Source: Cytophagales bacterium
Lineage (GTDB): Bacteria; Bacteroidota; Bacteroidia; Cytophagales; Thermoflexibacteraceae
DNA: 64,000 nt
Reading direction: 5' to 3'
NCBI GenBank assembly: GCA_013299115.1
Contig: JAAFKA010000013.1
Coordinates: 1 to 64,000 of the forward strand
Shown here one piece after another: positions 2,379-39,451 of the stretch (position 1 is its first letter; each line of letters begins with the position of its first letter). The notes below the pieces were generated by a model. It did not search any database. It saw only the letters and a list, made by a program, of their open reading frames with translations, and was not told the origin of the DNA. Position numbers and translations under genes: made by a program.

Positions 2379-5300
2379 ATGTCCTTGCGATTTTTATATT
2401 TTTTTGTCTGCTTGTGTGGGTTGCTTACACCTACCTTATTTGCCCAGCAAGAGGCAGATGAGTTGGTGTTCGAGCATTTGTCTATCAAGCAAGGATTGTC
2501 GCAAGGTATCATTACGGGCATAGCCCAAGACGGCAAGGGTTTTATGTGGTTTGGCACAGAAGACCACCTCAACAGGTACGACGGCTATGAGTTTTTTCAC
2601 CACGAAAACGACCCCAACAACAAATATTCTCTGCCCGACAACTGGATAAGAGGCTTGGCTGCCGACAAAGAGGGCAATATTTGGGTAAGCACGGACACGA
2701 AAGGCATAGCTTTTTATGACCGCAAAAAAGACCGTTTTAAATCTTACCTCGCCAAACCCGACCAACCCGATGCCTTGGTATCTAACTATACCTCTTGCAT
2801 CTTTGTCGACTCCAAAAACTTTGTCTGGGTTGGTACAAAAGATTCGGGACTTTGCCAATTAGACGTAAAAACAGGTAAATTTACTCGGTATAGCTACCAA
2901 AAAGAAAATATTGCGTCCTTAGCAGACAATTTTGTGCGTTGTATTTACGAAGACCAAACAGGCAATATTTGGGTAGGCACTAATGCGGGGCTTTGCTTGC
3001 TAAACGAAAATGGCACTTTTACCTCTTACCGCAAAAGCAGTGCAGGGCTAACCGACCAAGAAATCAGGAGTATTTGCGAAGACGAAAACGGAATGTTGTG
3101 GTTGGGTACAGGCAGCGGCGGTATCAATAAATTTGACACTAAGAAAAATATTTTTTACAACTATGCTTACTTAGACAATAAAACTCCACTCTATAATTTG
3201 CTCAACAGAGTAGGTATTAATGCCGTAATAGAAGACAAAAAAGGCAATATTTGGATTGGTACGGCACAGGGTGGCGTAAAAAGAGAACTCAAATTAGTGC
3301 TGACTAAAGACAAAACGGGCAAAGAAGTAAGGGCAATGACTGAAGTGTTTACGATTTTCAAAAACAGTCCTGCCAATTTGTTTAGTTTGAGCAACAACCA
3401 CATTCGCAATATTTACGAAGACGTTTCGGGGATTATCTGGTTTGGAACTGATGGGGGCGGTATCAACTATTATGACCCTGAAATGAAAGTCTTTAAACAC
3501 TACAAACACGACTCGGCAGACCCTAACACCTTATCTAACAACACCATAAGGTCTGTTTTTGAGGACAGTCAAGGTATTTTGTGGATAGGGGCTATTGAAA
3601 GTGGTTTGGATAGGTTTGACAGGAAAAACGGCACAGTCAAAAATTATAGATACGCACAAGGTCTGGTAGGCAGCACAGTTTCCTCTATTTTCGAAGACAG
3701 TCAGGGATTTTTGTGGTTTGGTACACATGGCGGCGGGCTGAACAAATATGACAGAAAAACCGACAAATTTACTGTTTTGCAACACGACCCCAATAATGGT
3801 TTCAGCATCAGCAGCAACAGCATAGAGGGCATTCGGGAAGATAGAAAAGGCAATTTGTGGATTGCCACTGCGGGCGGATTAAACCGTTTGGACATTAAAA
3901 CAGGCGTATTCACTCGTTATTTGCACGACCCTAACGACAATAACTCTTTGCCTAACAACAGCATACAATCCAATGCTTTTTTGATAGATAAATTTGGCGT
4001 AATATGGTTAGGCACATACGGGGGAGGTTTCAGCAAGTTTGATACTGAACTTCGGAGGTTTTATCACTACAAAAACAACCCCAAAGACCCTCAGAGTTTG
4101 TGCGACAACAGAGTCATTGCCTTGTATGAGGACAAAGATGGCAATATTTGGGTAGGTACGCATGGCGGCGGTATGAGTCGGTTAGACAGGGCAACGGACA
4201 AATTCACGACTTTTACCATAGACAATGGTATGCCTAACAACGAAGTTTATGGAATTTTGGGAGATGAAAAAGGCAATATTTGGGCAAGTACCAAAAATGG
4301 TTTGCTTAAATACAATCCTGTAAGCCAAGTATTTAAGAGTTATTACGAAACAGATGGTTTGCAAAGCAATGTGTTTTATTGGGGTGCATCTTTTAAAAGC
4401 AAAAAAGGTGAATTATTTTTTGGTGGCACCAATGGACTCAATGCTTTTTTTCCTGAAAAAGTGAAAGACAACAATTACATTCCGCCTGTTGTCATTACCA
4501 AATTTGCCGTTTTAAACAAAACAGTGCCTATCAAAGACGACAGTTTGCACCGAGATTCGCCACTGAAAGTAAACATTACAGATGCAAAAGACATAGAATT
4601 ATCTTTCCGACAAAATTCCTTGACCTTTGAGTTTTCGGCTCTCAATTTTCGGTTGCCCCAAAAAAATCAATATGCTTACAAGTTAGAAAACTTCGACGAA
4701 GAGTGGATAAATGTAGAAGCAAAGAAAAGATTTGCAGCCTATAGCAATCTGCCTTACGGAGAATATGTATTTCGGGTAAAAGCCTCTAACAACGACGGGG
4801 CGTGGAACAACGAAGGCATTGCTATCAATATCAAAATTGTACCACCTATTTGGAAAACTCTTTGGTTTCAACTCTTGGCAGTAGCCTTCGTGTTAGGTGC
4901 TTTGTTTGGTTTGTATTCTTGGCGAATCAATAGTATAAAGGAGCAACAAGAAGAATTGGAGAGAAAAATAGAGGAGGCAACTGCCGAAATTAAGGCAAAA
5001 AATGAGGAGTTGGAAGTGCAAAAGCAAGAAGTTTCGCTGCAAAAAGAGAATATTCAAAGCAGTATCAAGTACGCCCAACGGATACAAGAAGCCATGTTGC
5101 CTTTGCCCGAAGTTTTTGCGGAGGCTTTGCCTGCATCTTTTGTGCTGTTCAAACCTCGCGACATTGTAAGTGGAGATTTTTATTGGCTATACCACGACAA
5201 CCAAAAAACCATAGTAGCGGCTGCCGACTGCACAGGGCATGGCGTGCCTGGGGCTTTTATGTCTATGATTGGCAATGACTTGTTAGGACAAATCGTAGAA

Positions 5301-5798
5301 CACGATGAAATTACAGAACCAGATTTGATTTTGAAAGAACTAAATATCGGGATTCGCAAAGCCCTACGCCAAGATGCAACCAACAACAAAGATGGCATGG
5401 ACGTGGCTATTTGCGTGATAAACCGTTTGGAAAGAACCCTCGAATATGCAGGGGCTATGAATCCGCTATGCTATATTCAAGACGAAGAACTGAAAGAAAT
5501 AAAAGCAGACAAATACGGAATTGGTGGCAGACAAGACGACAAGGAAAGACTTTTTAAGAAACATACTTTGCTCTTGGACAAACCCAGCGTATTTTACATT
5601 TATTCTGATGGCTATCAAGACCAATTTGGCGGACCTAACAACAGTAAATTTATGGCAAAAAGAATGAAACAACTCTTATTGGATATTCACAAAAAACCAA
5701 TGTATGAGCAGAAAAAAGAAATGGATGCTGTGATTACAGATTGGATACGCCACACCCGCCAAATAGACGATATTTTGGTAATTGGATTTAAAATTTGA
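2379..5798 (+). CDS. propeller-Y_Y_Y sensor with C-terminal SpoIIE/PP2C phosphatase
   Basis: A 1139-residue sensor phosphatase. The ATG at 2379 starts a clear signal peptide (MSLRFLYFFVCLCGLL..LFAQ). Residues ~30-690 carry about a dozen two-component-regulator propeller repeats, each marked by G-(N/F)-(I/L/M)-W-(F/I/V/L)-G-T. A Y_Y_Y beta domain follows (~750-820), then one membrane helix (~828-848), a Glu/Lys-rich coiled coil (~850-905) and a SpoIIE-type PP2C domain (~915-1139). Metal-binding motifs are intact: VSGDFYW, ADCTGHGVPGAF, DGMDV, YSDGYQDQFGG and DDILVIGF. The propeller should lie in the periplasm and the phosphatase in the cytoplasm. This layout resembles hybrid two-component sensors with the kinase replaced by a phosphatase. 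The likely substrate is a phosphorylated STAS- or SiaC-type protein; a SiaC homologue lies at 39071-39451. Confidence 0.93.
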   Translation: MSLRFLYFFVCLCGLLTPTLFAQQEADELVFEHLSIKQGLSQGIITGIAQDGKGFMWFGTEDHLNRYDGYEFFHHENDPNNKYSLPDNWIRGLAADKEGNIWVSTDTKGIAFYDRKKDRFKSYLAKPDQPDALVSNYTSCIFVDSKNFVWVGTKDSGLCQLDVKTGKFTRYSYQKENIASLADNFVRCIYEDQTGNIWVGTNAGLCLLNENGTFTSYRKSSAGLTDQEIRSICEDENGMLWLGTGSGGINKFDTKKNIFYNYAYLDNKTPLYNLLNRVGINAVIEDKKGNIWIGTAQGGVKRELKLVLTKDKTGKEVRAMTEVFTIFKNSPANLFSLSNNHIRNIYEDVSGIIWFGTDGGGINYYDPEMKVFKHYKHDSADPNTLSNNTIRSVFEDSQGILWIGAIESGLDRFDRKNGTVKNYRYAQGLVGSTVSSIFEDSQGFLWFGTHGGGLNKYDRKTDKFTVLQHDPNNGFSISSNSIEGIREDRKGNLWIATAGGLNRLDIKTGVFTRYLHDPNDNNSLPNNSIQSNAFLIDKFGVIWLGTYGGGFSKFDTELRRFYHYKNNPKDPQSLCDNRVIALYEDKDGNIWVGTHGGGMSRLDRATDKFTTFTIDNGMPNNEVYGILGDEKGNIWASTKNGLLKYNPVSQVFKSYYETDGLQSNVFYWGASFKSKKGELFFGGTNGLNAFFPEKVKDNNYIPPVVITKFAVLNKTVPIKDDSLHRDSPLKVNITDAKDIELSFRQNSLTFEFSALNFRLPQKNQYAYKLENFDEEWINVEAKKRFAAYSNLPYGEYVFRVKASNNDGAWNNEGIAINIKIVPPIWKTLWFQLLAVAFVLGALFGLYSWRINSIKEQQEELERKIEEATAEIKAKNEELEVQKQEVSLQKENIQSSIKYAQRIQEAMLPLPEVFAEALPASFVLFKPRDIVSGDFYWLYHDNQKTIVAAADCTGHGVPGAFMSMIGNDLLGQIVEHDEITEPDLILKELNIGIRKALRQDATNNKDGMDVAICVINRLERTLEYAGAMNPLCYIQDEELKEIKADKYGIGGRQDDKERLFKKHTLLLDKPSVFYIYSDGYQDQFGGPNNSKFMAKRMKQLLLDIHKKPMYEQKKEMDAVITDWIRHTRQIDDILVIGFKI

Positions 5799-5842
5799 TT
5801 CTTTCGTTTTTTTCTGTAACTTAGTAATAGATTAAGACGCAA

Positions 5843-5871
5843 TTATCAAACACTTCAAAAGTGTCCGATAA
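5843..5871. repeat. palindromic repeat, TTATCGGACACTT family (degenerate copy)
   Basis: A ttatcaaacactt arm pairs with aagtgtccgataa with two mismatches. It is the same element as the perfect hairpins at 22986-23014 and 45312-45341. It lies between the propeller phosphatase and the Rpn-type nuclease and could act as a weak bidirectional terminator, though no T-run follows directly. Confidence 0.7.
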
Positions 5872-5890
5872 ATTTGTCTTTACTTAGATA

Positions 5891-6742
5891 ATGAAACAGA
5901 CTATGCAATTTGCTGACATAAAAAATGATATTGCTTTCCGTAAAATCTTTGGAAATGAAAACAAAACAGAAATTTTGATTTCGTTTTTGAATGCGGTTTT
6001 AAAATTAGAGGGAAACAAAAAAATTACTTGGGTTGAAATACTTAATCCTTATCAATTACCTATTGTCTTGGGTGCTAAATCTACCATTCTAGACGTGAAG
6101 GCAAAAGATAAAGTAGGTAATGAGTATATAGTCGAAATGCAGGTTACGGACAAAATTGGTTTCGCTAAAAGAGTAGTTTATTATAGTGCCAAAAGCTACT
6201 CGGCACAACTCGACGTAGGAGAAAATTATTACAAGTTGAAACCAATTATCTTTATTGGTATTTTAAATTTTGAGTTTTTAGATGGTAAAAACTATTTATC
6301 AAGACATCTGATTTTAGACGCAGAAACCAAAGAACATAAACTCAAAGACTTAGATTTCAACTTTATAGAGTTACCTAAGTTTAATAAAACAGAACAAGAG
6401 TTAGAAAATTTGGTTGAGAAATGGGTTTATTTTATCAAAAACGCAGAAAACTTAACCGTAATTCCAGCAGGTCTGGAAGATGAAGGCTTACAATCGGCTT
6501 ATACAGAAGCAAACAGGCACAATTGGAAAAAAGAGGATTTGGAGGCTTACGAATACGCACGTATGCGTGAAAGTGATGATATAGCCAGAGAGATGCTTGT
6601 AGAACAGAAAGCAGAATTACGTAAACAGACTGAAATGGCTAAAAATGCACTTGCAGAAGGTTTTGATGACAACCTAATTTCTAAACTAACAGGCTTAACT
6701 CTTGAACAAATCCAAGAATTACGAATTAAATTAAACCAATAA
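5891..6742 (+). CDS. Rpn-family recombination-promoting nuclease/putative transposase (PD-(D/E)XK)
   Basis: A 283-residue member of the PDDEXK_2/Rpn family. The N-terminus has the family hallmark NDIAFRKIFG. The nuclease core is visible as Asp68 (LDVKAKD) and Glu82-x-Gln84 (YIVEMQ), matching the D...ExQ catalytic pattern. The C-terminal part (~200-283) is helical with a highly charged stretch, and it ends in a short LTGLTLEQIQELR motif often seen in these proteins. Rpn proteins are DNA endonucleases that raise RecA-independent recombination and are often scattered mobile-like genes without terminal repeats. No inverted repeats flank this copy. A second in-frame ATG lies at 5903. Confidence 0.88.
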   Translation: MKQTMQFADIKNDIAFRKIFGNENKTEILISFLNAVLKLEGNKKITWVEILNPYQLPIVLGAKSTILDVKAKDKVGNEYIVEMQVTDKIGFAKRVVYYSAKSYSAQLDVGENYYKLKPIIFIGILNFEFLDGKNYLSRHLILDAETKEHKLKDLDFNFIELPKFNKTEQELENLVEKWVYFIKNAENLTVIPAGLEDEGLQSAYTEANRHNWKKEDLEAYEYARMRESDDIAREMLVEQKAELRKQTEMAKNALAEGFDDNLISKLTGLTLEQIQELRIKLNQ

Positions 6743-6744
6743 TT

Positions 6745-6760
6745 AGAGGTTATTACGATA
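6745..6760. repeat. solo end of the AGAGGTTATTACGAT MITE-like family
   Basis: The 16 bases agaggttattacgata match exactly one end of the ~101-bp elements elsewhere in the window, but the internal part and the other end are absent. It looks like a decayed or solo terminal repeat, 3 bases after the Rpn-type gene. Confidence 0.6.
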
Positions 6761-6782
6761 CAAGTTATGCTGTAACTACCTT

Positions 6783-6815
6783 AGAACTAACATTTCTTTA
6801 AGAAATGTTAATTCT
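6783..6815. repeat. palindromic repeat, AACATTTCTT family
   Basis: A 16-bp stem with one mismatch: agaactaacatttctt pairs with aagaaatgttaattct around a single central base. The same core recurs at 58153-58209 and 60059-60091. Confidence 0.75.
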
Positions 6816-6886
6816 GAGCATTATAGCTGTGGCACTACCAGTAAATTAATTTCATATTTCAATGTCTTTTATGTTTCATATCTGTT

Positions 6887-8908
6887 ATGCTACCTACTAA
6901 CCCAACAACCATTTATCAAAATGGTCAACATATTGAAAATCAGGCAAATAGCTTGACCACCGCCAAAGAAACCTATACATTGGCAGAAGTGCAACTCCTG
7001 CAAAGTGAACTGTTGCAAAAACAACAACAGATGGAGGAGAGAATGTGGGCAGACTCGACTTTGAGCAAGTTTGACGATATTTTGCGTATCAACTACGACA
7101 AATCTATCCACGAGTTTTCGGAAGTAGTTATCTATCACACTTCAAAATTGACCCACGCCTTGCGAGGGGCATTTTATACAGTGGGCGACACCTTGATAGA
7201 AGCCACAGGTTGCTATGCTTGCACTTTGCAATCTTTGTTTAAAAACAGTTTTGAGATAGGCGAAGGATTGATAGGGCAGGCTGCCAAGTCGAAAGAAATT
7301 TTGTATTTGGAAAACCTACCCCAACAAAACCTTTCAGTTAGCTCGTCTTCGGGCTTAATCAGTGCCAAGTCGGTGATAATAGTCCCCTTGATTTTTAACG
7401 ACAAGGTGTATGGTGTAATAGAATTGTTGTTTTTGAGTAGTTTGGAGGAAAAGTACAAAGAATTATTGAATAGGCTGAGTCGCAATGTGGCTACCATGTT
7501 GCAAAGTATCCAAAGCAATGCCAAAACCAAACAGTTGCTTACCGACTCGGTGTTTCAGGCAGAAGCCCTGCGGAGTGCAGAGGAGGAACTTCGCCAAAAT
7601 ATGGAGGAAATAAGTGCCATTCGAGAAGATGTGGAGGCTAAAAATGGAGAGCTGCAATCACAAATAGCCATAGCCCAGCAAAAAACCGAAGAACTCCGCG
7701 CCCAAGAGGAAGAACTCCGCCAAAATATGGAGGAATTAGTTTCTACCCAAGAAGAAATGGAAAGAATGAACCGCGAAATGCAGTTGCTACTTACAGCAAC
7801 TGATGCAGCTTTGTTTGTTTTGGAAATATCGACAGATAATAAAATATTGAAAGTTAATAAAAAATTTTTAGACCAAACGGGCTATGCCTTAGACGATTTG
7901 TTGTATAAAAACTACCAATCTATTATGGACAAAGACGAGTGGGCAGCCTATCAAGCCAATTTCAGCAAACTAAAAGATGGGCAGCTGGTACGCAGAGAAG
8001 TAAAACGGAGAAAGAAAAACGGAGAGTTGGTATGGTCTGATGCCACTTACTGCCCCTTGATGAACGAAAATGGCGAATTGACCAAAGTCTTAAAAATTAG
8101 TTATGACATCACCGAAAAGAAAAAACAAGCCGAAGCCATAGACAATTTGCTCAAAGAAGTACAAATAAGAGCCGCCGCCGCAGACGAGTCGCAATTCATA
8201 GTCGAACTTTCTACTGATGCCAAATTGCTCAAATGCAACCAAAAGTTTTTGAAAGAAACTGGTTATACCTTAGAAGACTTGGAGGGCAAAGACTACAAAA
8301 TGCTCATGGACAATGCTGAATTTATCAACTATCAAGATACGCTACTCCAACTCAAAGAAGGCAAATTGGTGCGAAAGGAAGTAAAACGCAAAAAGAAAAA
8401 CGGCGACCTCGTTTGGCTCGATGCCACCTACTGCCCTGTTTTTAATAATTTGGGAGAACTCACCAAAATATTTAAAATGAGTTATGATATTACAGACAAG
8501 AAAAAACAAGCCGAAGAAATTAATAACTTGCTCAAAGAAGTGCAGGTTATGTTGGCAGCAGCCGATGAATGTTTGTTTATGGTAGAGTTGTCAGTCGATG
8601 CCAAATTGCTTAAATGCAACCAAAAGTTTCTCAAAGAAACAGGTTACAGCCACCAAGATTTGTTTCAAAAAGACTATAAAATTCTGATGGACACCTTAGA
8701 ATTTGCAAACTATCAGGATACACTTCTGCAACTCAAACAAGGAAAAATCGTAAGAAAAGAAGTGAAACGGATAAAGAAAGATGGTGATATTGTGTGGCTC
8801 GATGCTATTTATTATCCTGTTGCAGATGAACAAAAAAATCTTGTGAAAATATTTAAACTTAGCTACGATATTACCCAAAAGAAAGAATTGGAAAATAGAC
8901 GTTGGTAA
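6887..8908 (+). CDS. GAF - coiled coil - triple PAS sensory protein without output domain
   Basis: A 673-residue soluble protein with no signal peptide or membrane helix. A GAF domain lies at ~60-205, then a coiled coil (~205-300) with two EELRQNMEE heptad blocks, then three PAS domains (~305-420, ~430-545, ~557-670), each ending in the PAC-type YDIT(E/D/Q)KK. The PAS units are close copies of one another with a 381-base (127-residue) period between units 1 and 2, and share LLKCNQKFL, RKEVKR and WLDA blocks, so they arose by recent internal duplication. No kinase, cyclase, phosphatase or DNA-binding domain follows. The GAF-SpoIIE gene 188 bases downstream on the same strand is a plausible partner. 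It probably senses cytoplasmic small molecules or redox state and signals by contact. Confidence 0.88.
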   Translation: MLPTNPTTIYQNGQHIENQANSLTTAKETYTLAEVQLLQSELLQKQQQMEERMWADSTLSKFDDILRINYDKSIHEFSEVVIYHTSKLTHALRGAFYTVGDTLIEATGCYACTLQSLFKNSFEIGEGLIGQAAKSKEILYLENLPQQNLSVSSSSGLISAKSVIIVPLIFNDKVYGVIELLFLSSLEEKYKELLNRLSRNVATMLQSIQSNAKTKQLLTDSVFQAEALRSAEEELRQNMEEISAIREDVEAKNGELQSQIAIAQQKTEELRAQEEELRQNMEELVSTQEEMERMNREMQLLLTATDAALFVLEISTDNKILKVNKKFLDQTGYALDDLLYKNYQSIMDKDEWAAYQANFSKLKDGQLVRREVKRRKKNGELVWSDATYCPLMNENGELTKVLKISYDITEKKKQAEAIDNLLKEVQIRAAAADESQFIVELSTDAKLLKCNQKFLKETGYTLEDLEGKDYKMLMDNAEFINYQDTLLQLKEGKLVRKEVKRKKKNGDLVWLDATYCPVFNNLGELTKIFKMSYDITDKKKQAEEINNLLKEVQVMLAAADECLFMVELSVDAKLLKCNQKFLKETGYSHQDLFQKDYKILMDTLEFANYQDTLLQLKQGKIVRKEVKRIKKDGDIVWLDAIYYPVADEQKNLVKIFKLSYDITQKKELENRRW

Positions 8909-8954
8909 AGTAGTGTAAAATTGCTCGAAAACTTCTAAGGTTTTTTAAAACTTT

Positions 8955-9056
8955 ATAGGTTATTACGATTTGTACTGTACCCTTTAGGGTGCAAGGTCAA
9001 TTAGCTGAAAATCAACAAGTTAATTTTTCTATACAAAAATTATCGTAATAACCTCT
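8955..9056. repeat. MITE-like element, copy A
   Basis: Terminal inverted repeats aggttattacgat (8957-8969) and atcgtaataacct (9042-9054) flank a ~75-base core containing accctttagggt and aaggtcaattag. About 102 bp long, with no coding capacity. It belongs to the same family as 10525-10625, 34614-34713 and 41612-41712. The outer two bases of the left end have diverged. It fills the gap between the GAF-PAS gene and the GAF-SpoIIE gene. Confidence 0.88.
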
Positions 9057-9096
9057 TTTACAGGTTTAAGTTTTGGTAAATATTTGGCAGCTAAAA

Positions 9097-10443
9097 ATGA
9101 CAACTGAACTCCTTGATATAGAACAAATTAACGCAAGTTTGCCAATCCGCACCACAGCCGAAAATGAACATTGGTTGTTGAGCAGTTTAGATACTTTTGC
9201 GGAGGTGCTGTATGTGCAAGAAGACCAAGATGTGGCAACATGGGCAGATATTTTTTCGGCACATCTGGCACCGCACATCAAAGGCGTGCAGGTAGCTTTG
9301 TATATGCAAAAAGGCAACTCTCTTTATTTGGTAGGTGGCTATGCTCTCCAACAAACAAACACCAAAGACCAGCCCCTTGCCATAGGCGAGGGCATCGTAG
9401 GCAAAGTAGCCAAATACAATGAACCTGTATTTTTGCAAGACGATAGCATCAATTACCAAGAAAATTTGGGTACAGTTTCTTTCCAATTAGCAGCCTTAGT
9501 AGCCCTGCCTTTGGCTTTCAACAAAAAAGTATGCGGCGTATTGGAAGTCTTGTTTATGGAAAAGCCCAAACAAATTTACATAGACTTACTCCAACGGCTG
9601 ACCGAAAGAATAGCTGCCAATCTCAACCTTTTTATGATGATGGACAAGTTGGCGGAGAGCAAAAAAGTTATTCAAGCAAAAAACGAAAATATTTGGGCAA
9701 GTATCAATTACGCAAAAAAAATTCAAAATACCTTTCTACCTTCAGAGGCTGAAAGATTGCAAATATTTTCTGAAAGTTTTGTTATTTACAAGCCCCTACA
9801 CATTGTTTCAGGAGATTTTTATTGGCTCTCTGTCCACGACCCCATAAGAATTGCTTGTATTTTCGACTGCACAGGACATGGTATTCCTGCTGCCTTTGTG
9901 TCTTTGTTGGGCTACAATTTGATTAATGAGGCAATTAAACAAAATTTTGTCTATGCACCCGCCGACATCGTGGCGTGGCTCAATTATGGTATCTACCAAC
10001 GAATGAGAAACGGCAACGACAAGATAGACGATGGCATGGATATTGGTATCTGTACTATACAACCACTTGAAAATGAACAGTTTAGCATCAGGTATGCAGG
10101 AGCAAAACACAACTTGTTTTTTTCGCAAGCAGGCAAAATAGAAAAATTGCAATCCGATAAATTTTCTTTGGGTACTGCACCGCAATGTGAACCCAATGAA
10201 CAAGAAATAATTTTGCAAAAAGGAGAAATGCTTTACCTCCTCACAGACGGCTACACCGACCAAGCCAATAAAGACAGAAAAAGATTTGGTACTCCCAAAT
10301 TAATGAAATTGTTAGAAAAAATTTATACCTTGCCACTCCATACACAAGAATATGAACTCCGTACTACTTTCGAAAACCACAGCCACGAGGTAGAACAAAG
10401 AGATGATGTAACTTGCATAGGGTTAAAATTAATGGTTGTCTGA
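9097..10443 (+). CDS. GAF domain SpoIIE/PP2C phosphatase
   Basis: A 448-residue soluble phosphatase; the ATG at 9097 is preferred over an upstream in-frame TTG at 9073. A GAF domain occupies ~30-175, a short coiled linker follows with SINYAKKIQNTFLP, and the SpoIIE/PP2C domain runs from ~230 to the end. Metal-site motifs are present: VSGDFYW, FDCTGHGIPAAF, DGMDIGIC, LTDGYTDQ and RDDVTCIG. It should remove phosphate from Ser/Thr of a partner protein in response to a ligand bound by GAF. The last residues (KLMVV) and the stop codon lie inside a repeat (ggttgtctgacaattttt) that recurs at 13.7 and 28.2 kb, so the C-terminus differs from the VIGFK ending of its paralogues. An intrinsic terminator follows at 10463. 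Confidence 0.92.
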   Translation: MTTELLDIEQINASLPIRTTAENEHWLLSSLDTFAEVLYVQEDQDVATWADIFSAHLAPHIKGVQVALYMQKGNSLYLVGGYALQQTNTKDQPLAIGEGIVGKVAKYNEPVFLQDDSINYQENLGTVSFQLAALVALPLAFNKKVCGVLEVLFMEKPKQIYIDLLQRLTERIAANLNLFMMMDKLAESKKVIQAKNENIWASINYAKKIQNTFLPSEAERLQIFSESFVIYKPLHIVSGDFYWLSVHDPIRIACIFDCTGHGIPAAFVSLLGYNLINEAIKQNFVYAPADIVAWLNYGIYQRMRNGNDKIDDGMDIGICTIQPLENEQFSIRYAGAKHNLFFSQAGKIEKLQSDKFSLGTAPQCEPNEQEIILQKGEMLYLLTDGYTDQANKDRKRFGTPKLMKLLEKIYTLPLHTQEYELRTTFENHSHEVEQRDDVTCIGLKLMVV

Positions 10444-10462
10444 CAATTTTTGTGTAAACGTA

Positions 10463-10490: not shown

Positions 10491-10524
10491 GGGCAAAGCC
10501 TATGATAAATCATAAGCCTATATT

Positions 10525-30901: not shown

Positions 30902-31444
30902 ATGCGAAAACTTACTATGGAGGAACTTAATAGAGTTTCTCCCAAAACTTACAAACAACAACAAAACGAAAAAATAGTAGTTGTTTTAGATAATATACGA
31001 AGTATGCACAATGTAGGGGCAGCTTTCCGCACTGCTGATGCCTTCGGCGCAGGACATCTCTACCTCTGTGGCTTAACAGGTAAGCCCCCCCACCGCGAAA
31101 TAGAAAAAACAGCTTTGGGAGCTACCGACTCCGTTTCTTGGACTTACTATGAACAAACAACAGACCTTTTGCCTATTCTCCAACAAGCTGGTTATCAACT
31201 CATTGCTATCGAACAGACTACACAAAGCATAGCTTTACAAGACTTTCCTTTTGCACCTACACAAAACTATGCCTTGATTTTTGGCAATGAAGTTTTTGGT
31301 GTAGCAGATGAGGTAATGCCACATTGCAACTTTGCCATAGAAATTCCCCAAGAAGGCACTAAACATTCTCTAAATGTTTCGGTTTGTGTGGGCGTAGTCT
31401 TATGGCAATATATAGCCCGCGTAAAATTAGCTAATCACTTTTAA
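30902..31444 (+). CDS. SpoU/TrmH-family RNA 2'-O-methyltransferase
   Basis: A 180-residue SPOUT-fold methylase. Motif 1 is NIRSMHNVGAAFRTADAFG, motif 2 is FGNEVFGV, and motif 3 is IPQEGTKHSLNVSVCVGVVL, forming the knotted AdoMet site. It methylates the 2'-O of ribose in tRNA or rRNA; the exact target (G18 of tRNA or a 23S position) cannot be inferred. The length is that of the minimal family. It lies 57 bases after hemW. Confidence 0.93.
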   Translation: MRKLTMEELNRVSPKTYKQQQNEKIVVVLDNIRSMHNVGAAFRTADAFGAGHLYLCGLTGKPPHREIEKTALGATDSVSWTYYEQTTDLLPILQQAGYQLIAIEQTTQSIALQDFPFAPTQNYALIFGNEVFGVADEVMPHCNFAIEIPQEGTKHSLNVSVCVGVVLWQYIARVKLANHF

Positions 31445-31540
31445 GGAAACTGCTAATTTTTTTTGCATAAAATTATTTTTGTAACATTTTTTTTTGTTTA
31501 TTGTTTATCTTTTATTTACCAAAACATCTTAAACAAAAAT

Positions 31541-32395: not shown

Positions 32396-32440
32396 ATATT
32401 TTGCCGTTTTAGGCAGCACATATAAAAGCAATTTATTTGC

Positions 32441-32941
32441 TCATTTTGTCCGTACAAAAGCCATTGCTTTGCCATAAAAGAAACTCAAATCCTGATATTT
32501 GGCTATAAAAGCTTGCAAATCCTTTGAGTTTTCGAACTTTTCTTTGATATGCTCCGACAAGGGCAACAGTGCTACCTGCTGTTTGTCTTTTGAAAACTCT
32601 ACTTTGTAGAGCAAATAGCCTTTGTTGCCTTTGTCGGTTTTTAAGTTCCAAAATAGAGTACCAGCCACTAAAGACAAATGTCCTGTGTATTCTTCTTTTC
32701 TGTAAACCTCTAAAGCCTCGTCCAGCGTGTTTTCTATAATAAGATAATGATAAGTATCCAACTTTTTGAATTCATAAAAATCTTTGTTGGTACTTTCTGC
32801 ATCTTTCCATTTGCCTAAGACTGTTTCGTCTATTGGAATTTGTGGACTGTCAATCGGAATTACTGACTCGTAAGGGCAGCCTGTGCAGCAGAATAAGACC
32901 AACAACAAAACAAAGTAATGATAAATTTTTTGGTGTTTCAT
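32441..32941 (-). CDS. putative lipoprotein of unknown function
   Basis: A 166-residue protein. The ATG at 32941 is preferred because it gives MKHQKIYHYFVLLLVLFCCTGC, a lipoprotein signal; the frame is open further upstream but that part lacks a signal. The mature domain (~40-166) looks like a small beta-rich fold (VLGKWKDAESTNKDFYEF, HYLIIE, YLLYKVEF) reminiscent of lipocalin-like lipoproteins starting with GKW. No family is assigned. Convergent with the amidotransferase gene. Confidence 0.75.
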   Translation of the reverse strand: MKHQKIYHYFVLLLVLFCCTGCPYESVIPIDSPQIPIDETVLGKWKDAESTNKDFYEFKKLDTYHYLIIENTLDEALEVYRKEEYTGHLSLVAGTLFWNLKTDKGNKGYLLYKVEFSKDKQQVALLPLSEHIKEKFENSKDLQAFIAKYQDLSFFYGKAMAFVRTK

Positions 32942-33133
32942 TTTGTTAGAAATAGATATGAAAATTGTATATAAAATTAAATAAACTGCTCTGGTACAGA
33001 TTAATGAGTGTATTGAGCATAAAATTGCAACCTTTTTATACAAGAATAGACCTGTATAGGCACGACTTGCAATTTATACAAGATTTAGCTTGAATACTAC
33101 TTTTAATTTTACAAAACATTAACAGTGTAGGAT

Positions 33134-33165
33134 TTTGCAATACAAGTCTTTTTTTCATACTTTTG
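33134..33165 (+). promoter_or_regulatory. Bacteroidota-type promoter for lptE-coaX
   Basis: TTTG at 33134-33137, a 20-base spacer, then TACTTTTG at 33158-33165, a full match to TTTG / TAnnTTTG. The expected transcript start is ~10 bases before the ATG at 33183, so the leader is very short. Confidence 0.75.
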
Positions 33166-33182
33166 GTAAATTTTGCTTTGCA

Positions 33183-33713
33183 ATGAAAGTAGTCCGTTTG
33201 TTTATCGCCAGCCTTTGGTTGGCATTGGTTTTGGGTAGCTGTGCCAGACCTCCCAGCATTTCGTTTAATGGGGCTTCGTTGTCGCCAGAGATGAAATCTA
33301 TTACCATTCGCAACTTTTATAGTGATGTGGCAGCAGGTCCTGCCAATATCAATATTCAATTTACAGAAAAACTGAAAGAGTTTTACCAACGCAATACCCG
33401 TTTAGCCGTAGTAAACGACAACGGCGATTTGAGTTTGGAAGGCACAATTACAGATTATAGCATAGCTCCTATTGCTCCTGTGGCAGGTACTGGCGATTTT
33501 CAACAGATAGCAGGGCAGCAACGCCTAAGTATTACTGTAAAAGTGCAATATACCAATGCCAAAGACAGTGGCAAAGATTTTGACCAATCTTTTACGCAGT
33601 TTTCAGATTTTCCGCCCAATACAAACCTCAACCAAATAGATGCCTCGTTGATTGACGACATTTTTAAACGCATAGTATTAGATATTTTTAACAAATCAGT
33701 AGGAGATTGGTAA
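33183..33713 (+). CDS. lptE: LptE-like LPS-assembly lipoprotein
   Basis: A 176-residue lipoprotein. The ATG at 33183 gives MKVVRLFIASLWLALVLGSC with Cys 20. The mature protein has the Bacteroidota LptE pattern: a SISFNGASLSPEMKSITIRNF strand pair, FTEKLKEFYQRNTRLAVV, then GDLSLEGTITDYSIAP. LptE plugs the LptD barrel that inserts lipopolysaccharide into the outer membrane. It lies 3 bases before coaX, so both share the promoter at 33134-33165. Confidence 0.85.
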   Translation: MKVVRLFIASLWLALVLGSCARPPSISFNGASLSPEMKSITIRNFYSDVAAGPANINIQFTEKLKEFYQRNTRLAVVNDNGDLSLEGTITDYSIAPIAPVAGTGDFQQIAGQQRLSITVKVQYTNAKDSGKDFDQSFTQFSDFPPNTNLNQIDASLIDDIFKRIVLDIFNKSVGDW

Positions 33714-33716
33714 AAG

Positions 33717-34505
33717 ATGACAAATCTATTGTTAGCCATAGACACAGGCAATTCGGACACTGTTTTTGGAATTTTTGAAGGAGAAACCATTTTGTTTCAA
33801 TGGCGGACTCCCTCGTCTTTGCAGTGGACTACTGCCGATTATGCCATGTTTATTCGGAGTTACCTCTTAGAATTGGACATCAAACCTTCGGCTGTGCAAC
33901 GCGTGGTGTATAGCAGCGTGGTGCCTGCCTTGACTGCTACGATTTTACAAGCTACAGAAACTATGTTTGCCTGCAAACCCTTGTTAGTAGAGGCTTCTCT
34001 TTACCATGCCTTGCCCATTAAGCCTATCAACACCAAAGAAATAGGTACAGACCTTGTGGCAAATGCCACTGCAGCCTACTCCCGATACAAACAAGCCTGC
34101 ATTGTGGTCGACTTTGGTACTGCCCTCACTTTTACCACCATTGCCGCCGATGGCACCTTGATTGGCGTTGCCATTGCCCCTGGAATAAAAACGGCTTTGC
34201 GTGCCTTAGTGCAAAATACGGCTCAGCTGCCCGAAGTTCCTCTCGAAATTCCTACTTCGGCTTTGGGGAAAAACACAACCCAAGCCCTGCAAGCTGGCAT
34301 TTTGTTGGGTTATGTAGGTTTAGTCAAAGAATTGTTGGCAAGTATCAAAGCAGAACTCAAAGTAAAACATTGTCCTGTCATAGCCACAGGGGGCTTGGCT
34401 TTTGTGATGAAACCCTTAGACGAGTTTTTTGTGGAAATGGACGTAAACCTGACCTTAGACGGCTTGCGGTTAATTGGAAAATATGTGCAAAAAAATCCTC
34501 TGTAG
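33717..34505 (+). CDS. coaX: type III pantothenate kinase
   Basis: A 262-residue ASKHA-fold kinase. Hallmarks are AIDTGNSDTVFGIF (phosphate loop), EIGTDLVANATAAY, VVDFGTALTFTTI and VIATGGLA. It phosphorylates pantothenate in the first step of coenzyme A synthesis, ATP-dependent and insensitive to CoA feedback. The start is 3 bases after the lptE stop, indicating translational coupling. panB, also in pantothenate synthesis, is found at 59189-60004 in this window. Confidence 0.95.
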   Translation: MTNLLLAIDTGNSDTVFGIFEGETILFQWRTPSSLQWTTADYAMFIRSYLLELDIKPSAVQRVVYSSVVPALTATILQATETMFACKPLLVEASLYHALPIKPINTKEIGTDLVANATAAYSRYKQACIVVDFGTALTFTTIAADGTLIGVAIAPGIKTALRALVQNTAQLPEVPLEIPTSALGKNTTQALQAGILLGYVGLVKELLASIKAELKVKHCPVIATGGLAFVMKPLDEFFVEMDVNLTLDGLRLIGKYVQKNPL

Positions 34506-34613
34506 GCAATTAATTGCCTATTTCTGATAAAAAACAAGACAAAATAAAGCAAATGAAAGATTTGTTTTTATCTGCTACTTTTTTGGGGCATCTATTTTTT
34601 AACTTTTACCAAT

Positions 34614-34713
34614 AGAGGTTATTACGATAATTTTTGCATAGAAAATTACCTATTGATTTTCAGCTAATTGACCTTGCACCCTGAAGGGTACGGTACAAAT
34701 CGTAATAACCTCT
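34614..34713. repeat. MITE-like element, copy C
   Basis: A 100-bp element with perfect 15-bp terminal inverted repeats (agaggttattacgat and atcgtaataacctct), flanked by TA on both sides when extended one base (tagagg..cctcta), compatible with a TA target duplication. Same orientation as copy B. No ORF. It lies downstream of coaX. Confidence 0.92.
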
Positions 34714-34804
34714 AATAGTTCAATGTAAGTTTTTTGCAAAAAATTTTAACAAATTCAACTTTTTTTATATTTTGCACAATTATTGAATTAAAGTTTTTGC
34801 AAAA

Positions 34805-34931
34805 GTAGTGTAGTATGGGTTTCAGCCCGCACATTTTTAATTATGCAAAGCTATATTTTCAAAAATTCATACAAAAATTGATGTTTAAAAAACTTAATTG
34901 AGTTAGGTGTGGACTGAAGTCCACACTACAA
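34805..34931. repeat. inverted pair of GTAG-footed REP-like hairpins
   Basis: gtagtatgggtttcagcccg (hairpin, 34810-34829) and, inverted, gtgtggactgaagtccacac followed by tac (34908-34930). Read from the other strand the second is GTAGTGTGGACTTCAGTCC. The two face each other about 75 bases apart, like the paired REPs (REPINs) of other bacteria. They lie upstream of the rhodanese gene. Confidence 0.75.
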
Positions 34932-34963
34932 AATTATGCAACTTACACCAACTACCAATTTTT

Positions 34964-35275
34964 ATGCACAATTTGACACCAACACAAGCACAAGAGCAGA
35001 TAAAAACCAACAGTGGCGAACTCCTCGATGTGCGAACTGCATCTGAATACGAAGCAGGTTATATACAAAATGCTCAAAATATAGATTTTCTAAGCGGAGA
35101 ATTTGAACGTACAATTCCAACCTTAGACAAGAATAAAACGTATTATCTCTATTGCAAGTCAGGAGGACGAAGTGGCAAAGCTACCGACCTTTTGTTGGCT
35201 GCTGGTTTCGAAAAAGTTTACAACATTGGCGGTTTCGAGATGCTGGCAGCAGCAGGGTTTCCTGTGGAATATTAA
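34964..35275 (+). CDS. rhodanese-like sulfurtransferase
   Basis: A 103-residue single-domain rhodanese. The ATG at 34964 is preferred; an upstream frame from 34907 runs into a REP-like hairpin. Blocks are LLDVRTASEYEAGYIQNAQNID and the active-site loop YCKSGGRSGKA with the catalytic Cys, then GFEKVYNIGGFEML. It carries sulfur as Cys persulfide between donor and acceptor in the cytoplasm. Stand-alone PspE/GlpE-type proteins of this length are common. A long hairpin follows at 35291-35347. Confidence 0.92.
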   Translation: MHNLTPTQAQEQIKTNSGELLDVRTASEYEAGYIQNAQNIDFLSGEFERTIPTLDKNKTYYLYCKSGGRSGKATDLLLAAGFEKVYNIGGFEMLAAAGFPVEY

Positions 35276-35290
35276 AAGTAATGAATGATT

Positions 35291-35347
35291 TAAAATTTGT
35301 TTAAAGATGTCATCTTTTGAAAAGATGACATCTTCAAACAAATTTTA
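35291..35347. repeat. long palindrome, AAGATGTCATCTTTT family
   Basis: aaaatttgtttaaagatgtc and its matching arm gacatcttcaaacaaatttt enclose an atctttt/aaaagat core; the stem is ~26 bp with one mismatch. The same GATGTCATCTTTT core is in the 71-bp palindrome at 40287-40357. It lies after the rhodanese gene and 35 bases before the four-GAF phosphatase. Confidence 0.8.
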
Positions 35348-35381
35348 AAACGCATTTTAAGTAAAACTAAAACTAACAAAG

Positions 35382-38300
35382 GTGCTACACACGCCAGCTA
35401 TCATACAACAAATTATAGGGCAGAATCAAACCAAAGATTTGATTGGTTTTGCTTTGCAGACTTTGCTCAACCATACCATAGCTGACAAGATTTATTTTGT
35501 GCGGGCAGGTGGCAATGCTTGGCGTATAGCAGCAGAGCAACACAAAGGTATGGCTATTTATTTCAGGTATTCGGACAAGGACAACAACGATGGCATTATA
35601 CTCCAACACGAAAAGTCTTTGCTTGCCCAAACTGCCACCATAGCCAAAAGCAAATTGCTTTGGAATTGGAAAAAAACGACCAAAAATCCTGAACTACAAG
35701 CCGAAAACATAGTAGGCTTGCCTTTGTTGCGTGCCAATTCGGTGGTTGGGGTTGTGTTTTTAGAAAATTATAGCAAAACAGATACTTTTGCACCTGAAAT
35801 TATAGAGGAAATTACGCAGTTTTTAAGTTATGTTTCTCTTGCCTTGTATCATACGGACACGCAAGACGAATTGCGGGCTTATATTACCGAAACAACCACA
35901 ACTTTATTAGACTTTCAACAAGAAGCAGAAATAAAAGATGCAGCCTTAGCCCAAAAGAAAGACGAAGTATTGCAAGCCTATGAAGACCTAAAATTATTGA
36001 GCCAAATAGGGCAGGAAATTGCTACACACCTCACAGTAGAAAAAATTATAGAAACAGCTTACGAAAATATCAACAAACTAATGGACGCAACCATTTTTGA
36101 TATAGGGTTGTATAATAAATCGCAAAATAGATTAGATTTTTTGGGTACAATAGAAAATGGGAAAAAATCAGCTATTCATTATTTCCATCTCGAACACGAC
36201 AAAAACAGATTGGCGGTTTGGTGTTTTAACAACAGAGAAAAAGTAGTGGTTGGCAATATAGAAAAAGACTATTATCATTATTTGCCTAACGATAAACTGC
36301 CTCCACCTTCTACGGGCAAAAGGTGTAAGTCCTTGATTTACTTGCCTATTTTGCTCGAAGGCAATGCTTTGGGTGTCATCACCGTACAAACTTATACGGA
36401 AAATGCTTACTCCAAATACCACATCAATATCTTGCGAAACTTGGCGGTGTATGTGGGCATAGCCTTAGAAAATGCAGATGCTTACCGCAGCATTTCTATC
36501 AACAATTTTGAAATAGCCCAACAAAAACAGGTCATCGAGCAGAATAATGCAGAACTTGCCCAGCAAAAAGAACAGATAGAACAAGCCTATACCAATGTGC
36601 GTAAATTGGGCGAAATTGGCAAAGCCATTACCTCCAGCCTTTCTATTTTTACGATTATAGAAATGGTCTATGGCAATATCAACCAACTGATGGATGCCTC
36701 TGTATTTTGCATAGGATTGTATGACGAAAGCAAACAAAGATTAGTTTTTCAAGGTGGCAAAGAAGAAGGTAAAACTCTCAAGGAATTTTCTATTAAAGTA
36801 GCAGAGGAAAGGCTGGCGGGTTGGTGTTTTCGGCACAACAAAGAAATTGTGATTAACAATGCACAGCAAGAATACAACCAATACGTTGTGGGTACTTTTC
36901 AACCCATGGCGGGGATTAACTCCGAGTCTATCATTTACTTGCCACTAAACGACAAAGTTGGCAAGACCATAGGCGTTATCACAGTGCAGAGTTTCAGGCA
37001 AAATGCTTATCACGACTACCACGTGAATATGCTCCGCAATTTGGCAATTTATACTGCCATTGCCTTAGAAAATGCCTTGTTGTACCAAAACTTGGAGGAA
37101 AAAGTATTAGAAAGAACCAAAGAAGTGGTGTTGCAAAAAGAGCAAATAGAAACTTCTTACCAAAATATCAAGTTGTTGAGTGAAATTGGTTTTTCGGTTA
37201 CGTCTTCTCTTTCTACTGAAAGAATCATAGAAACTGTCTATGAAAATGTAAACAAAATTATGGACGCAGCAGCCTTTGCTGTGGGTGTGATTAACGAAAA
37301 AACAGGCAAAATAGAATTTAAAGGTGGCATGGAAAAAGGCGAAAAATTGCCTGTTTTCTATCACCCCATAGATGACGACCTCCGTTTTTCGGTTTGGACT
37401 ATTCGCAACCGCCAAGCCGTTTTTATCAATGACTATGCTAACGACTACAAAAAATATATTCCTCAACTCAAACCACCCGAACAAGGCGAAGACCCTGAGT
37501 CTTTAATCTACTTGCCGTTGATGGTCAAAGAAAAAATAATAGGGGTGCTGACTGTCCAAAGTTTTGCCTCCAATGCCTATACCGAATATGATTTAGATTT
37601 GTTGCGAAATTTGAGTTTATACATTGCCATTGCCTTAGAAAATTCGGAGGCATACACGCAAATAGACCAACAAAAGCAAGAAATTGAGAAAACGAACAAC
37701 AAAATTACGTCGAGTATCAACTACGCCCAAAGGATTCAGCAGTCTATTCTGCCTGAACCCAAAACGGTTGCAGCCTTGTTGCCCGATTCTTTTGTGTTTT
37801 TCAAACCCAAAGACATTGTTTCGGGAGATTTTTATTGGATAGAGGAAAAAGATGACAAAATTTTTGTGGCAGCCATAGATTGCACAGGGCATGGCATACC
37901 TGGTGCTTTTATGAGTTTGATAGGCAATGAAATGTTAAACGAAATTGTGATGTTGCAAGACATTTTTTCGCCTGACCTCATTCTCAAAACCTTGCACGAA
38001 AAAATTCGCAAATCTTTACGCCAAGCCGAAAACGACAATCGTGATGGCATGGACATTGCCATCTGCGTGCTGCACCGCCAAGACCGCAGCATCAGCTATG
38101 CAGGGGCTATGAATCCTTTGCTTTATATTCAAAATGGCGAAGTGCAGCTTATCAAGGCAGACAAAAATTCGGCAGGTGGTATTCAACGTGAGCCTGAAAG
38201 ATTTTTTACCAAACATACCATTCAAGCCCATGATACGCCTACGTATTGCTACATTTTTTCAGACGGCTACCAAGACCAATTTGGCGGCGGCAGAAAATAC

Positions 38301-38447
38301 GGCTTGCCCCGCATGAAAGAATTGTTTGCAACTTTACACCAATTACCTATGCCCGAACAACAAGAAAACATAATCAACGAATGGGAAAATTGGCGTGGAA
38401 CAGAAAATCAAATAGACGATATATTGGTAATTGGGTTTAAATGGTAA
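35382..38447 (+). CDS. four-GAF SpoIIE/PP2C phosphatase
   Basis: A 1021-residue soluble protein. The start is GTG at 35382; no ATG occurs before the first GAF domain. Four GAF domains lie at ~15-155, ~205-365, ~410-570 and ~610-770, the last three being internal repeats that each begin with a (LLSQIGQEI / LGEIGKAIT / LLSEIGFSVT) helix and share the pattern YENINKLMDA. The SpoIIE/PP2C domain is at ~800-1021 with all metal motifs (VSGDFYW, IDCTGHGIPGAF, DGMDIAICV, FSDGYQDQFGG, DDILVIGFK). The linker SINYAQRIQQSILP is shared with its paralogues. Separate GAF ligands may jointly gate the phosphatase. The start of the YdeI-like gene is 9 bases downstream. Confidence 0.93.
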   Translation: MLHTPAIIQQIIGQNQTKDLIGFALQTLLNHTIADKIYFVRAGGNAWRIAAEQHKGMAIYFRYSDKDNNDGIILQHEKSLLAQTATIAKSKLLWNWKKTTKNPELQAENIVGLPLLRANSVVGVVFLENYSKTDTFAPEIIEEITQFLSYVSLALYHTDTQDELRAYITETTTTLLDFQQEAEIKDAALAQKKDEVLQAYEDLKLLSQIGQEIATHLTVEKIIETAYENINKLMDATIFDIGLYNKSQNRLDFLGTIENGKKSAIHYFHLEHDKNRLAVWCFNNREKVVVGNIEKDYYHYLPNDKLPPPSTGKRCKSLIYLPILLEGNALGVITVQTYTENAYSKYHINILRNLAVYVGIALENADAYRSISINNFEIAQQKQVIEQNNAELAQQKEQIEQAYTNVRKLGEIGKAITSSLSIFTIIEMVYGNINQLMDASVFCIGLYDESKQRLVFQGGKEEGKTLKEFSIKVAEERLAGWCFRHNKEIVINNAQQEYNQYVVGTFQPMAGINSESIIYLPLNDKVGKTIGVITVQSFRQNAYHDYHVNMLRNLAIYTAIALENALLYQNLEEKVLERTKEVVLQKEQIETSYQNIKLLSEIGFSVTSSLSTERIIETVYENVNKIMDAAAFAVGVINEKTGKIEFKGGMEKGEKLPVFYHPIDDDLRFSVWTIRNRQAVFINDYANDYKKYIPQLKPPEQGEDPESLIYLPLMVKEKIIGVLTVQSFASNAYTEYDLDLLRNLSLYIAIALENSEAYTQIDQQKQEIEKTNNKITSSINYAQRIQQSILPEPKTVAALLPDSFVFFKPKDIVSGDFYWIEEKDDKIFVAAIDCTGHGIPGAFMSLIGNEMLNEIVMLQDIFSPDLILKTLHEKIRKSLRQAENDNRDGMDIAICVLHRQDRSISYAGAMNPLLYIQNGEVQLIKADKNSAGGIQREPERFFTKHTIQAHDTPTYCYIFSDGYQDQFGGGRKYGLPRMKELFATLHQLPMPEQQENIINEWENWRGTENQIDDILVIGFKW

Positions 38448-38456
38448 TTCAAATTT

Positions 38457-39053
38457 ATGCAAATAGTCGAAAACCAAAACACTTTTTATGCAGCCAGCCA
38501 AGCCCTTTGGCGGGAGTGGTTGGCAGTCAATCACGAAACAAGCAGTTCTGTTTGGCTGATAATCTACAAAAAAGACAGTGGAGTACCATCGGTTTATTAC
38601 AACGAGGCGGTGGACGAAGCACTATGTTTTGGCTGGATTGACAGCAGCATAAGAAAAAGAGATGACAAAAGTTTTTACCAATTTTTTTCTCAACGCAAGC
38701 CCACCAGTAATTGGAGTGCGGTAAACAAGAAAAAAGTAGCAAACCTCATCGCAGCCAATCAAATGACCGAAGCAGGGTTGCGTGTCATCATACAAGCAAA
38801 AGCATCGGGCAAGTGGGGTGCATTAAACGAGGTTTCTGCATTGAAAACTCCCAAAGATATGGCAGCGTTGTTGGAGGCAAACCCCCAAGCAAAACAAAAC
38901 TTTGATAATTTTCCGTCTTCTGTCAAAAGAGGAATTTTAGAGTGGATTTTTAATGCCAAGAAACCTGAAACTCGACTGAAAAGAATACAAGAAACCATAG
39001 CCTTAGCTGCCGAAAATAAAAGAGCAAACCAATATCAGAAAAAAGGTAAGTAG
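38457..39053 (+). CDS. YdeI/OmdA-family protein
   Basis: A 198-residue protein with the family pattern of YdeI/OmpD-associated proteins: VDEALCFGWIDSSIR, FFSQRKPTSNWSAVNKKKV and a helical C-terminal part with PKDMAALLEANPQA and ending KRIQETIALAAENKRANQ. Members are widespread, often called bacteriocin-protection proteins, and their biochemical function is unknown. The ATG is 9 bases after the four-GAF phosphatase stop, so it is probably cotranscribed. Convergent with the SiaC-like gene 18 bases downstream. Confidence 0.88.
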   Translation: MQIVENQNTFYAASQALWREWLAVNHETSSSVWLIIYKKDSGVPSVYYNEAVDEALCFGWIDSSIRKRDDKSFYQFFSQRKPTSNWSAVNKKKVANLIAANQMTEAGLRVIIQAKASGKWGALNEVSALKTPKDMAALLEANPQAKQNFDNFPSSVKRGILEWIFNAKKPETRLKRIQETIALAAENKRANQYQKKGK

Positions 39054-39070
39054 TGATAAGTGGCTAATGA

Positions 39071-39451
39071 TTACACAAAAATCATACGGATTGGGAATTC
39101 GGCTTCTTCTCTTAAGTCTTCCACTTCTTCTTTCATCACGTCATCATCATTTTTGATATACCAATTTACCTGTGCCTCGCCACCTACGTCAGTATAGTCT
39201 TTGAGCATTTTAAACATTATCAAAATACATTTTGAACTGCTGGTGTTCATGTATTTCAGCCGCATATTGAGGGTCAGTGGTTTGCGAATGGTATCCATAT
39301 ACTCTTTGAGCCAAACATACAAAGGGTCGTAAAAAGCATAAGTCTTTTCGAGGTATGACTCTCCTGAAATTTCGCAAACACCTGTTTGAGATATAAATTT
39401 AATCTCTGGTGTAGCCACATCTTCACCAGCTTCTAAAACAATATTTTCCAT
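39071..39451 (-). CDS. SiaC-type regulatory phosphoprotein (DUF1987)
   Basis: A 126-residue protein; the ATG at 39451 gives the usual family length, while an upstream in-frame ATG at 39532 adds a non-conserved hydrophobic tail. It has the DUF1987 pattern: EIKFISQTGVCEISGESY, YDPLYVWLKEY, and LKYMNTSSSKCILIMFKML, with Thr70 in the NTSS motif corresponding to the phosphorylated Thr of Pseudomonas SiaC. There, SiaB kinase phosphorylates SiaC, the SpoIIE-type phosphatase SiaA removes the phosphate, and unphosphorylated SiaC activates the cyclase SiaD. No SiaB or SiaD is nearby, but four SpoIIE phosphatases are, one of them 600 bases away. Confidence 0.85.
   Translation of the reverse strand: MENIVLEAGEDVATPEIKFISQTGVCEISGESYLEKTYAFYDPLYVWLKEYMDTIRKPLTLNMRLKYMNTSSSKCILIMFKMLKDYTDVGGEAQVNWYIKNDDDVMKEEVEDLREEAEFPIRMIFV

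Follow-up and report, generated by a model that had tools for sequence, protein, structure and literature searches.

Sensor phosphatases outnumber SiaC switch proteins in a Cytophagales genome: a candidate many-to-few partner switch and its predicted docking stalk

Four sensor-bearing SpoIIE phosphatases and one SiaC-family phosphoprotein are encoded in a 64,000-nucleotide stretch of a Cytophagales bacterium (Thermoflexibacteraceae; assembly GCA_013299115.1, contig JAAFKA010000013.1, positions 1 to 64,000; hereafter the window). We consider it probable that they belong to a genome-wide partner switch in which many phosphatases act on few substrates, and that they supply four of its 87 input modules and one of its nine switches. 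Families, motifs, counts, co-occurrence, gene order and fusions are read directly from the DNA. The genome (5.5 Mb, 74 contigs, 99.99% complete) contains 95 matches to the SpoIIE profile, around which our own profile recognized 91 SpoIIE open reading frames (ORFs); one is a fragment of 74 residues, leaving 90, of which 87 carry SiaA-type modules and three are RsbU-like. A sequence-only reading of the window had supposed that many inputs might converge on one switch protein. The excess of phosphatases over switches is evident in the genome, but the single switch is not, since nine SiaC proteins are present.

The four phosphatases that this reading had described as intact are found as open frames with Pfam SpoIIE scores of 51.1–80.8 bits (cut-off 25 bits), and the catalytic motifs SGD, DCTGHG, DG and DD are legible in all of them; this statement refers to the four sequences as read directly, because the regular expressions in use were too narrow and missed an intact window copy. 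Among the sensors assigned to them, the propeller, the GAF domain and the TPRs were recovered, whereas the protein credited with four GAF domains has three GAF stretches by our count. The full-length cut-off of the NCBIfam SiaA equivalog (NF038263, 700 bits) is not reached by proteins whose sensors differ from that of SiaA, but the window copies score 151–190 bits over their C-terminal 260–300 residues, compared with 128–199 bits in four other SiaA-type proteins and 20–43 bits in the three RsbU-like ones. In a PDB comparison covering two window modules and one RsbU-like control, SiaA (6k4e) was the only match at E ≤ 1e-3 for the catalytic parts of the GAF phosphatase (1.3e-24) and the repeated-GAF phosphatase (8.6e-34); the control retrieved Rv1364c first and 6k4e second. 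By these comparisons, the four window modules are nearer to SiaA than to RsbU-like PP2C phosphatases.

The same division runs through the genome. With our own SpoIIE profile, which was trained on the very proteins it scores, the three RsbU-like proteins reach 152–165 bits and the other SpoIIE proteins 220–410; twelve SpoIIE proteins sampled from eight related genomes without SiaB and SiaC (SiaBC-negative genomes) reach 93–120. A signature D-C-[TS]-G-H occurs in 84 of the 87 SiaA-type proteins, among them all four window phosphatases (as D-C-T-G-H), and in all 21 proteins taken for comparison from SiaBC-positive genomes, but in none of the three RsbU-like proteins and in none of 13 RsbU-like proteins from other genomes. 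In this count the protein L221 is placed with the RsbU-like set and L272 with the SiaBC-positive set, which also includes L170, a SpoIIE protein not adjoining siaC. Pseudomonas aeruginosa SiaA itself reads D-C-A-G-H at this position, and its C475 is, according to the excerpted text of PMC7647112, the sole metal contact not common to Rv1364c. In a SpoIIE tree the RsbU-like set splits off with L221 as the one exception. Support for the split is low (0.271), and the argument for the SiaA type is therefore carried by scores and signature. N-terminal parts of the 87 proteins are diverse and include (Pfam, E ≤ 1e-4) TPR_12 in 32, GAF_2 in 20, Reg_prop in 16, Y_Y_Y in 15 and 7TMR-DISM in 13.

The SiaC homologue reported for the window was confirmed by its match to PF09345 (cut-off 24.5 bits) and by its NTSS phosphosite, which aligns exactly with the NTSS of solved P. 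aeruginosa SiaC (chains 6k4f and 6kko/7e6g, E ~1e-13). Its score against the equivalog of P. aeruginosa SiaC (NF038265) is 86.8 bits, below the cut-off of 150. All nine SiaC proteins of the genome keep the N-T of the phosphosite and fall into four groups in a tree, the window SiaC belonging to a variable, expanding group. Its nearest relatives are an orthologue in a sibling genome (G101; 70% identity) and then the second SiaC of a SpoIIE-SiaB-SiaC-SiaC run on C10 (61% identity to C10:41022), of which it is a lineage-specific paralogue. The genome-wide search suggested by the sequence-only reading returned, beside the nine SiaC proteins, six SiaB (DUF6272) kinases that pass the cut-off and a further match that falls short of it, three stand-alone STAS proteins and one more within a longer frame, and two clear stand-alone RsbW-type kinases. 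As that reading had assumed, the kinase is encoded elsewhere: no SiaB was found on the window contig, and all six SiaB genes lie beside other siaC genes, five adjoining a single siaC and one a siaC pair.

The reading had also made its case depend on co-occurrence in related genomes, and strong co-occurrence is what we observe. SiaC is present in 93 of 146 Cytophagales genomes and SiaB in the identical 93; no genome has just one of them. SpoIIE numbers follow this distribution. The 53 SiaBC-negative genomes, which include small reduced genomes (family f20), hold 0–3 scored SpoIIE matches (unscored candidates up to 15), while first-look candidates rise to 176 in SiaBC-positive genomes and exceed 20 in 43 of the 93; scoring was limited to 20 proteins per genome, so that the higher counts are first-look candidates. 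SpoIIE candidates correlate with SiaC counts over all genomes (Spearman 0.84), over the positives (0.80) and over 21 family means (0.85), the family means being the sole treatment of relatedness. By inspection, genome size is not the cause, because a SiaBC-positive genome of 3.3 Mb (G106) has 59 SpoIIE candidates and a negative one of 7.2 Mb (G010) two matches. SpoIIE-SiaB-SiaC gene runs in related genomes also speak for the partner switch, as do natural SiaB-SiaC fusions in five genomes (L154:1774-2739, L155:1058-2101, L156:1021-2010, L212 and L213); another genome has a tandem SiaB-SiaB protein (L157:1815-2978).

Such correlated numbers might also arise if each SiaA-type phosphatase were insulated with one of many substrates, mostly other than SiaC (RsbV-type STAS proteins and others), and the counts rose through a joint expansion of signalling genes. 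The STAS proteins and RsbW-type kinases listed above, counted in this genome and not order-wide, fit such an arrangement, as does a SiaA-type SpoIIE gene at C12:111903-113975 (L121), which lies near a gene for a kinase of slr1658 type that matches SiaB weakly, a small protein being encoded between them. This C12 locus may represent a third type of partner switch within this genome. A neighbour of 129 residues in the locus resembles STAS proteins on visual inspection, but it gave no Pfam match and was not counted as STAS. However, the nine SiaC proteins and the few STAS proteins stand against 87 phosphatases, and with so few candidates a one-to-one pairing with substrates of known kinds is impossible. 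Moreover, SiaBC-negative genomes of 6–8 Mb keep 0–3 SpoIIE matches each. We thus regard insulated pairs as unlikely.

Candidate outputs of the many-to-few switch were found through a docking motif. According to the excerpts of PMC8457831, P. aeruginosa SiaC docks on an S-D-R-x-Q stalk of the cyclase SiaD, its T68 going between the stalk helices and bonding with S82 and Q86 of the motif, and phosphorylation blocks the binding. In three small SiaBC systems, the gene 3' of SpoIIE-SiaB-SiaC encodes a protein of 160–170 residues that contains the motif I-T-K-V-S-D-[RK]-L-Q, has an extended charged helical region and is hydrophobic in its C-terminal part. In Azospirillum, K-I-S-D-R-x-Q stalks are carried by two proteins encoded after siaABC, a histidine kinase and a cyclase. 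A stalk profile matched two proteins in the genome studied here, both retaining the contact residues S, D and Q: one on C30, a short-type protein with two hydrophobic stretches (crude count) and no named family in Pfam and NCBIfam scans, and one on C2, a histidine kinase of 340 residues with HisKA and HATPase_c domains. A third match (11.6 bits, with internal stops) was dropped. Scanning 1047 cleaned ORFs from an initial set of stretches of this genome for the motif gave no stalk, the C30 and C2 genes lying outside those stretches.

Across the order, stalk matches occur in 41 of 146 genomes, all of them SiaBC-positive, and in none of the 53 negatives (Fisher 2e-10, uncorrected for relatedness); by family, 12 have both, four have SiaBC only, none has the stalk only and five have neither. 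We read 30 short stalk genes, including some of near-identical genomes; in 22 cases siaC is no more than 191 bp away and has the same orientation. The products of all 30 keep the contact residues almost throughout (S in 29, D in 30, Q in 30). Eight of 13 long stalk proteins (frames of more than 300 residues) were read: seven have HisKA and HATPase_c, one (G046) with a marginal stalk match, and the eighth (G008) is a fusion of SiaC with a stalk. In one genome (G001) a SiaA-type receiver-SpoIIE gene precedes the gene of a stalk kinase by 163 bp on the same strand. With two Azospirillum rows, the stalk profile finds SiaD in the PDB at E 2.1e-7. As an observation apart, two genes, one of them YfiR/HmsC-like (Pfam DUF4154), stand upstream of the HAMP-SpoIIE, SiaB, SiaC and stalk genes of one locus (L158:599-2367).

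From these data we infer the following scheme, in which the specificity of phosphatases for SiaC, the docking, the direction of the effect and the pairing of SiaC with a stalk are predictions. The sensor of each phosphatase would control the SiaA-type PP2C module to which it is joined. By default, SiaC would be phosphorylated at the Thr of its NTSS by SiaB kinases whose genes lie elsewhere in the genome, and any active phosphatase would strip the phosphate from SiaC, so that inputs converge in the manner of an OR gate. Once free of phosphate, SiaC would bind helical stalks with S-D-[RK]-x-Q and thereby determine the state of the stalk-bearing protein, which in this genome would be the short C30 protein or the C2 histidine kinase. 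The nine SiaC proteins may divide the inputs into a few channels. A broader proposal, which we put forward tentatively and hold somewhat short of probable, is that SiaC forms, in many Cytophagales, the trunk of a sensory network that spans the whole cell and is fed by tens to more than 100 sensor phosphatases per few SiaC, with the docking stalk as a portable adaptor that places diverse outputs (His-Asp phosphorelays through the histidine kinase, a short membrane protein) under Thr-phosphorylation partner switching.

Several observations weigh against the many-to-few scheme. Co-occurrence is no proof that a given phosphatase acts on SiaC, and the SiaA-type SpoIIE at C12 adjoins an slr1658-type kinase, not SiaB. 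No stalk was matched in 52 of the 93 SiaBC-positive genomes and four of the 16 SiaBC-positive families, so that other outputs exist or the profile misses them. The C30 gene itself belongs to the eight short stalk genes (of 30) that do not adjoin siaC, and the contact residues are less well conserved in the long stalk proteins, of which eight were read (S in 6, D in 8, Q in 5). Profiles built from Cytophagales stalks alone do not reach significance against SiaD in the PDB (E 2.4 and E 0.5, the latter sixth in the list), and although SiaD at 14.3 bits exceeds 6000 of 6000 shuffles, the margin is thin (best heptad-preserving shuffle, 13.4). A phmmer search of the PDB with one stalk protein gave nothing useful, and the NCBIfam SiaD model matches three stalk proteins weakly (E 0.0044, 0.056 and 0.037), amid matches to other helical proteins. 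The similarity between Cytophagales stalks and SiaD thus appears weak without the Azospirillum bridge. Finally, in four loci (L162, L163, L164 and L172) the gene 3' of siaC in a SpoIIE-SiaB-SiaC run encodes not a stalk protein but one of 1020–1050 residues with an ABC ATPase, an ABC-2 membrane part and a TerB match, the last just below the Pfam cut-off in two of the four; one extra gene intervenes in L164. This protein, which has no stalk match, is a second candidate output of SiaC. An NTASS-type SiaC of the genome studied here (on C15) clusters in the tree with the SiaC proteins of this arrangement; no TerB/ABC-2 transporter gene was found among the neighbours read.

These points bear on a further alternative, in which the phosphatases do act on SiaC but SiaC works solely on a diguanylate cyclase, as in Pseudomonas, or through partners without a stalk, the stalk being a general helical feature. 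That SiaD is the proven effector of SiaC (excerpts of PMC8457831) speaks for it, together with the failure of the Cytophagales-only profiles to recover SiaD significantly. Against it stand the absence of stalk matches from all 53 SiaBC-negative genomes, the stalk genes that adjoin siaC, a SiaC-stalk fusion and an Azospirillum histidine kinase with a SiaD-like stalk, encoded directly after siaABC; moreover, neither the C30 nor the C2 protein is a cyclase. We consider this alternative slightly less plausible still than that of insulated pairs.

The special cluster around the window SiaC that the sequence-only reading had described did not hold up: the proximity of the window phosphatases and siaC is a matter of chance. 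One run of four SpoIIE genes within 33 kb was observed, compared with a mean of 1.55 under random placement, which yields at least one such run in 73% of trials (contig ends ignored). In the one sibling looked at, G101, no SpoIIE gene was found in two 20-kb stretches that meet inside the siaC orthologue (about 20 kb on either side). Because of this chance expectation and the G101 neighbourhood, proximity in the window carries no functional weight. Four SpoIIE genes and siaC do lie inside 37 kb, but we reject as very improbable that they form a local cluster dedicated to a separate function, siaC moreover being on the other strand and convergent with its neighbour.

The many-to-few switch resembles SiaABCD of P. 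aeruginosa in its SiaA-type PP2C modules, its DUF6272 kinase, the NTSS of SiaC and the S-D-[RK]-x-Q stalk on predicted effectors. It differs in having 87 phosphatases and nine SiaC proteins, in window genes that are not in an operon with SiaB, and in its predicted effectors, where a short membrane protein and a histidine kinase take the place of the cyclase; the stalk search of the genome found no stalk cyclase (SiaD), and no search aimed at cyclases was made. The system would work like SiaABC. We set it apart as a variant of SiaABCD because the window SiaC scores below the equivalog cut-off and the stalk search yielded no stalk cyclase. An Azospirillum ramasamyi plasmid locus (NZ_CP029831.1) likewise has SpoIIE, SiaB and SiaC genes in a row, followed by the stalk histidine kinase and the stalk cyclase; unlike those studied here, its genes form a compact single run (8.4 kb read). 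In RsbU/RsbV/RsbW, a PP2C phosphatase opposes a kinase on a STAS-like switch. The HsbA/HsbD- and Bgr-type systems, named as STAS partner switches in the excerpts of PMC8457831, share this logic, but the substrate here is of the DUF1987/SiaC type, and the RsbU-like SpoIIE proteins of the genome group apart from the SiaA-type ones. The slr1658/slr1659 regulators (NCBIfam superfamilies) have a counterpart in the kinase beside the SiaA-type SpoIIE at C12, a locus separate from the window.

In the open-licence PMC literature, surveyed by titles, abstracts and term counts and with subscription papers outside the scope, we found no description of a SiaC/SpoIIE network in Bacteroidota or of the stalk on histidine kinases. 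If the proposal is correct, a biofilm switch known from one operon would rank among the main signalling architectures of a whole bacterial order, the stalk motif could be used to seek SiaC outputs in other genomes, and Thr-phosphorylation switching would be predicted to feed directly into two-component signalling. It also makes testable how a cell separates or merges signals from nearly ninety phosphatases with nine common substrates.

Table 1 Genes of the window considered in this study, with positions in the 64,000-nucleotide stretch.
Feature	Position	Strand	Evidence
Reg_prop propeller + Y_Y_Y + SiaA-type SpoIIE phosphatase, 1156 aa	2328-5798	+	Pfam SpoIIE 51.1 bits, Reg_prop 232 bits; NCBIfam SiaA 189 bits (C-terminal part)
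GAF + SiaA-type SpoIIE phosphatase, 456 aa	9073-10443	+	SpoIIE 80.8 bits; SiaA 151 bits
TPR + SiaA-type SpoIIE phosphatase, 813 aa	13947-16388	+	SpoIIE 51.7 bits; TPR_12 45.6 bits; SiaA 190 bits
Repeated GAF + SiaA-type SpoIIE phosphatase, 1021 aa	35382-38447	+	GAF_2 176 bits (3 stretches); SpoIIE 54.6 bits; SiaA 174 bits
OmdA-domain gene between last phosphatase and siaC	38457-39053	+	PF13376 73.6 bits
SiaC-family phosphoprotein, 126 aa, NTSS phosphosite	39071-39451	-	PF09345 128.1 bits, scored on longer frame

The open frame of the window siaC spans 39071-39532 on the minus strand, with the ATG at 39451 as its likely start. It is separated from the last phosphatase by the OmdA-domain gene, which starts 10 bases past the phosphatase gene and which we judge to lie outside the SiaC/phosphatase system. 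Genes for Rpn-type PD-(D/E)XK nucleases lie directly 3' of SpoIIE genes at 5891-6742 of the window and at C12:85078-85947. In all, 15 Rpn-type ORFs of mixed orientation, several of them beside SpoIIE genes, were counted in the analysed stretches of this genome; these stretches were picked around SpoIIE, and no conclusion is drawn from the association. A protein with a GAF and three PAS domains and no output domain according to Pfam is encoded at 6887-8908, on the same strand as the frame of the GAF phosphatase and 164 bases upstream of it.

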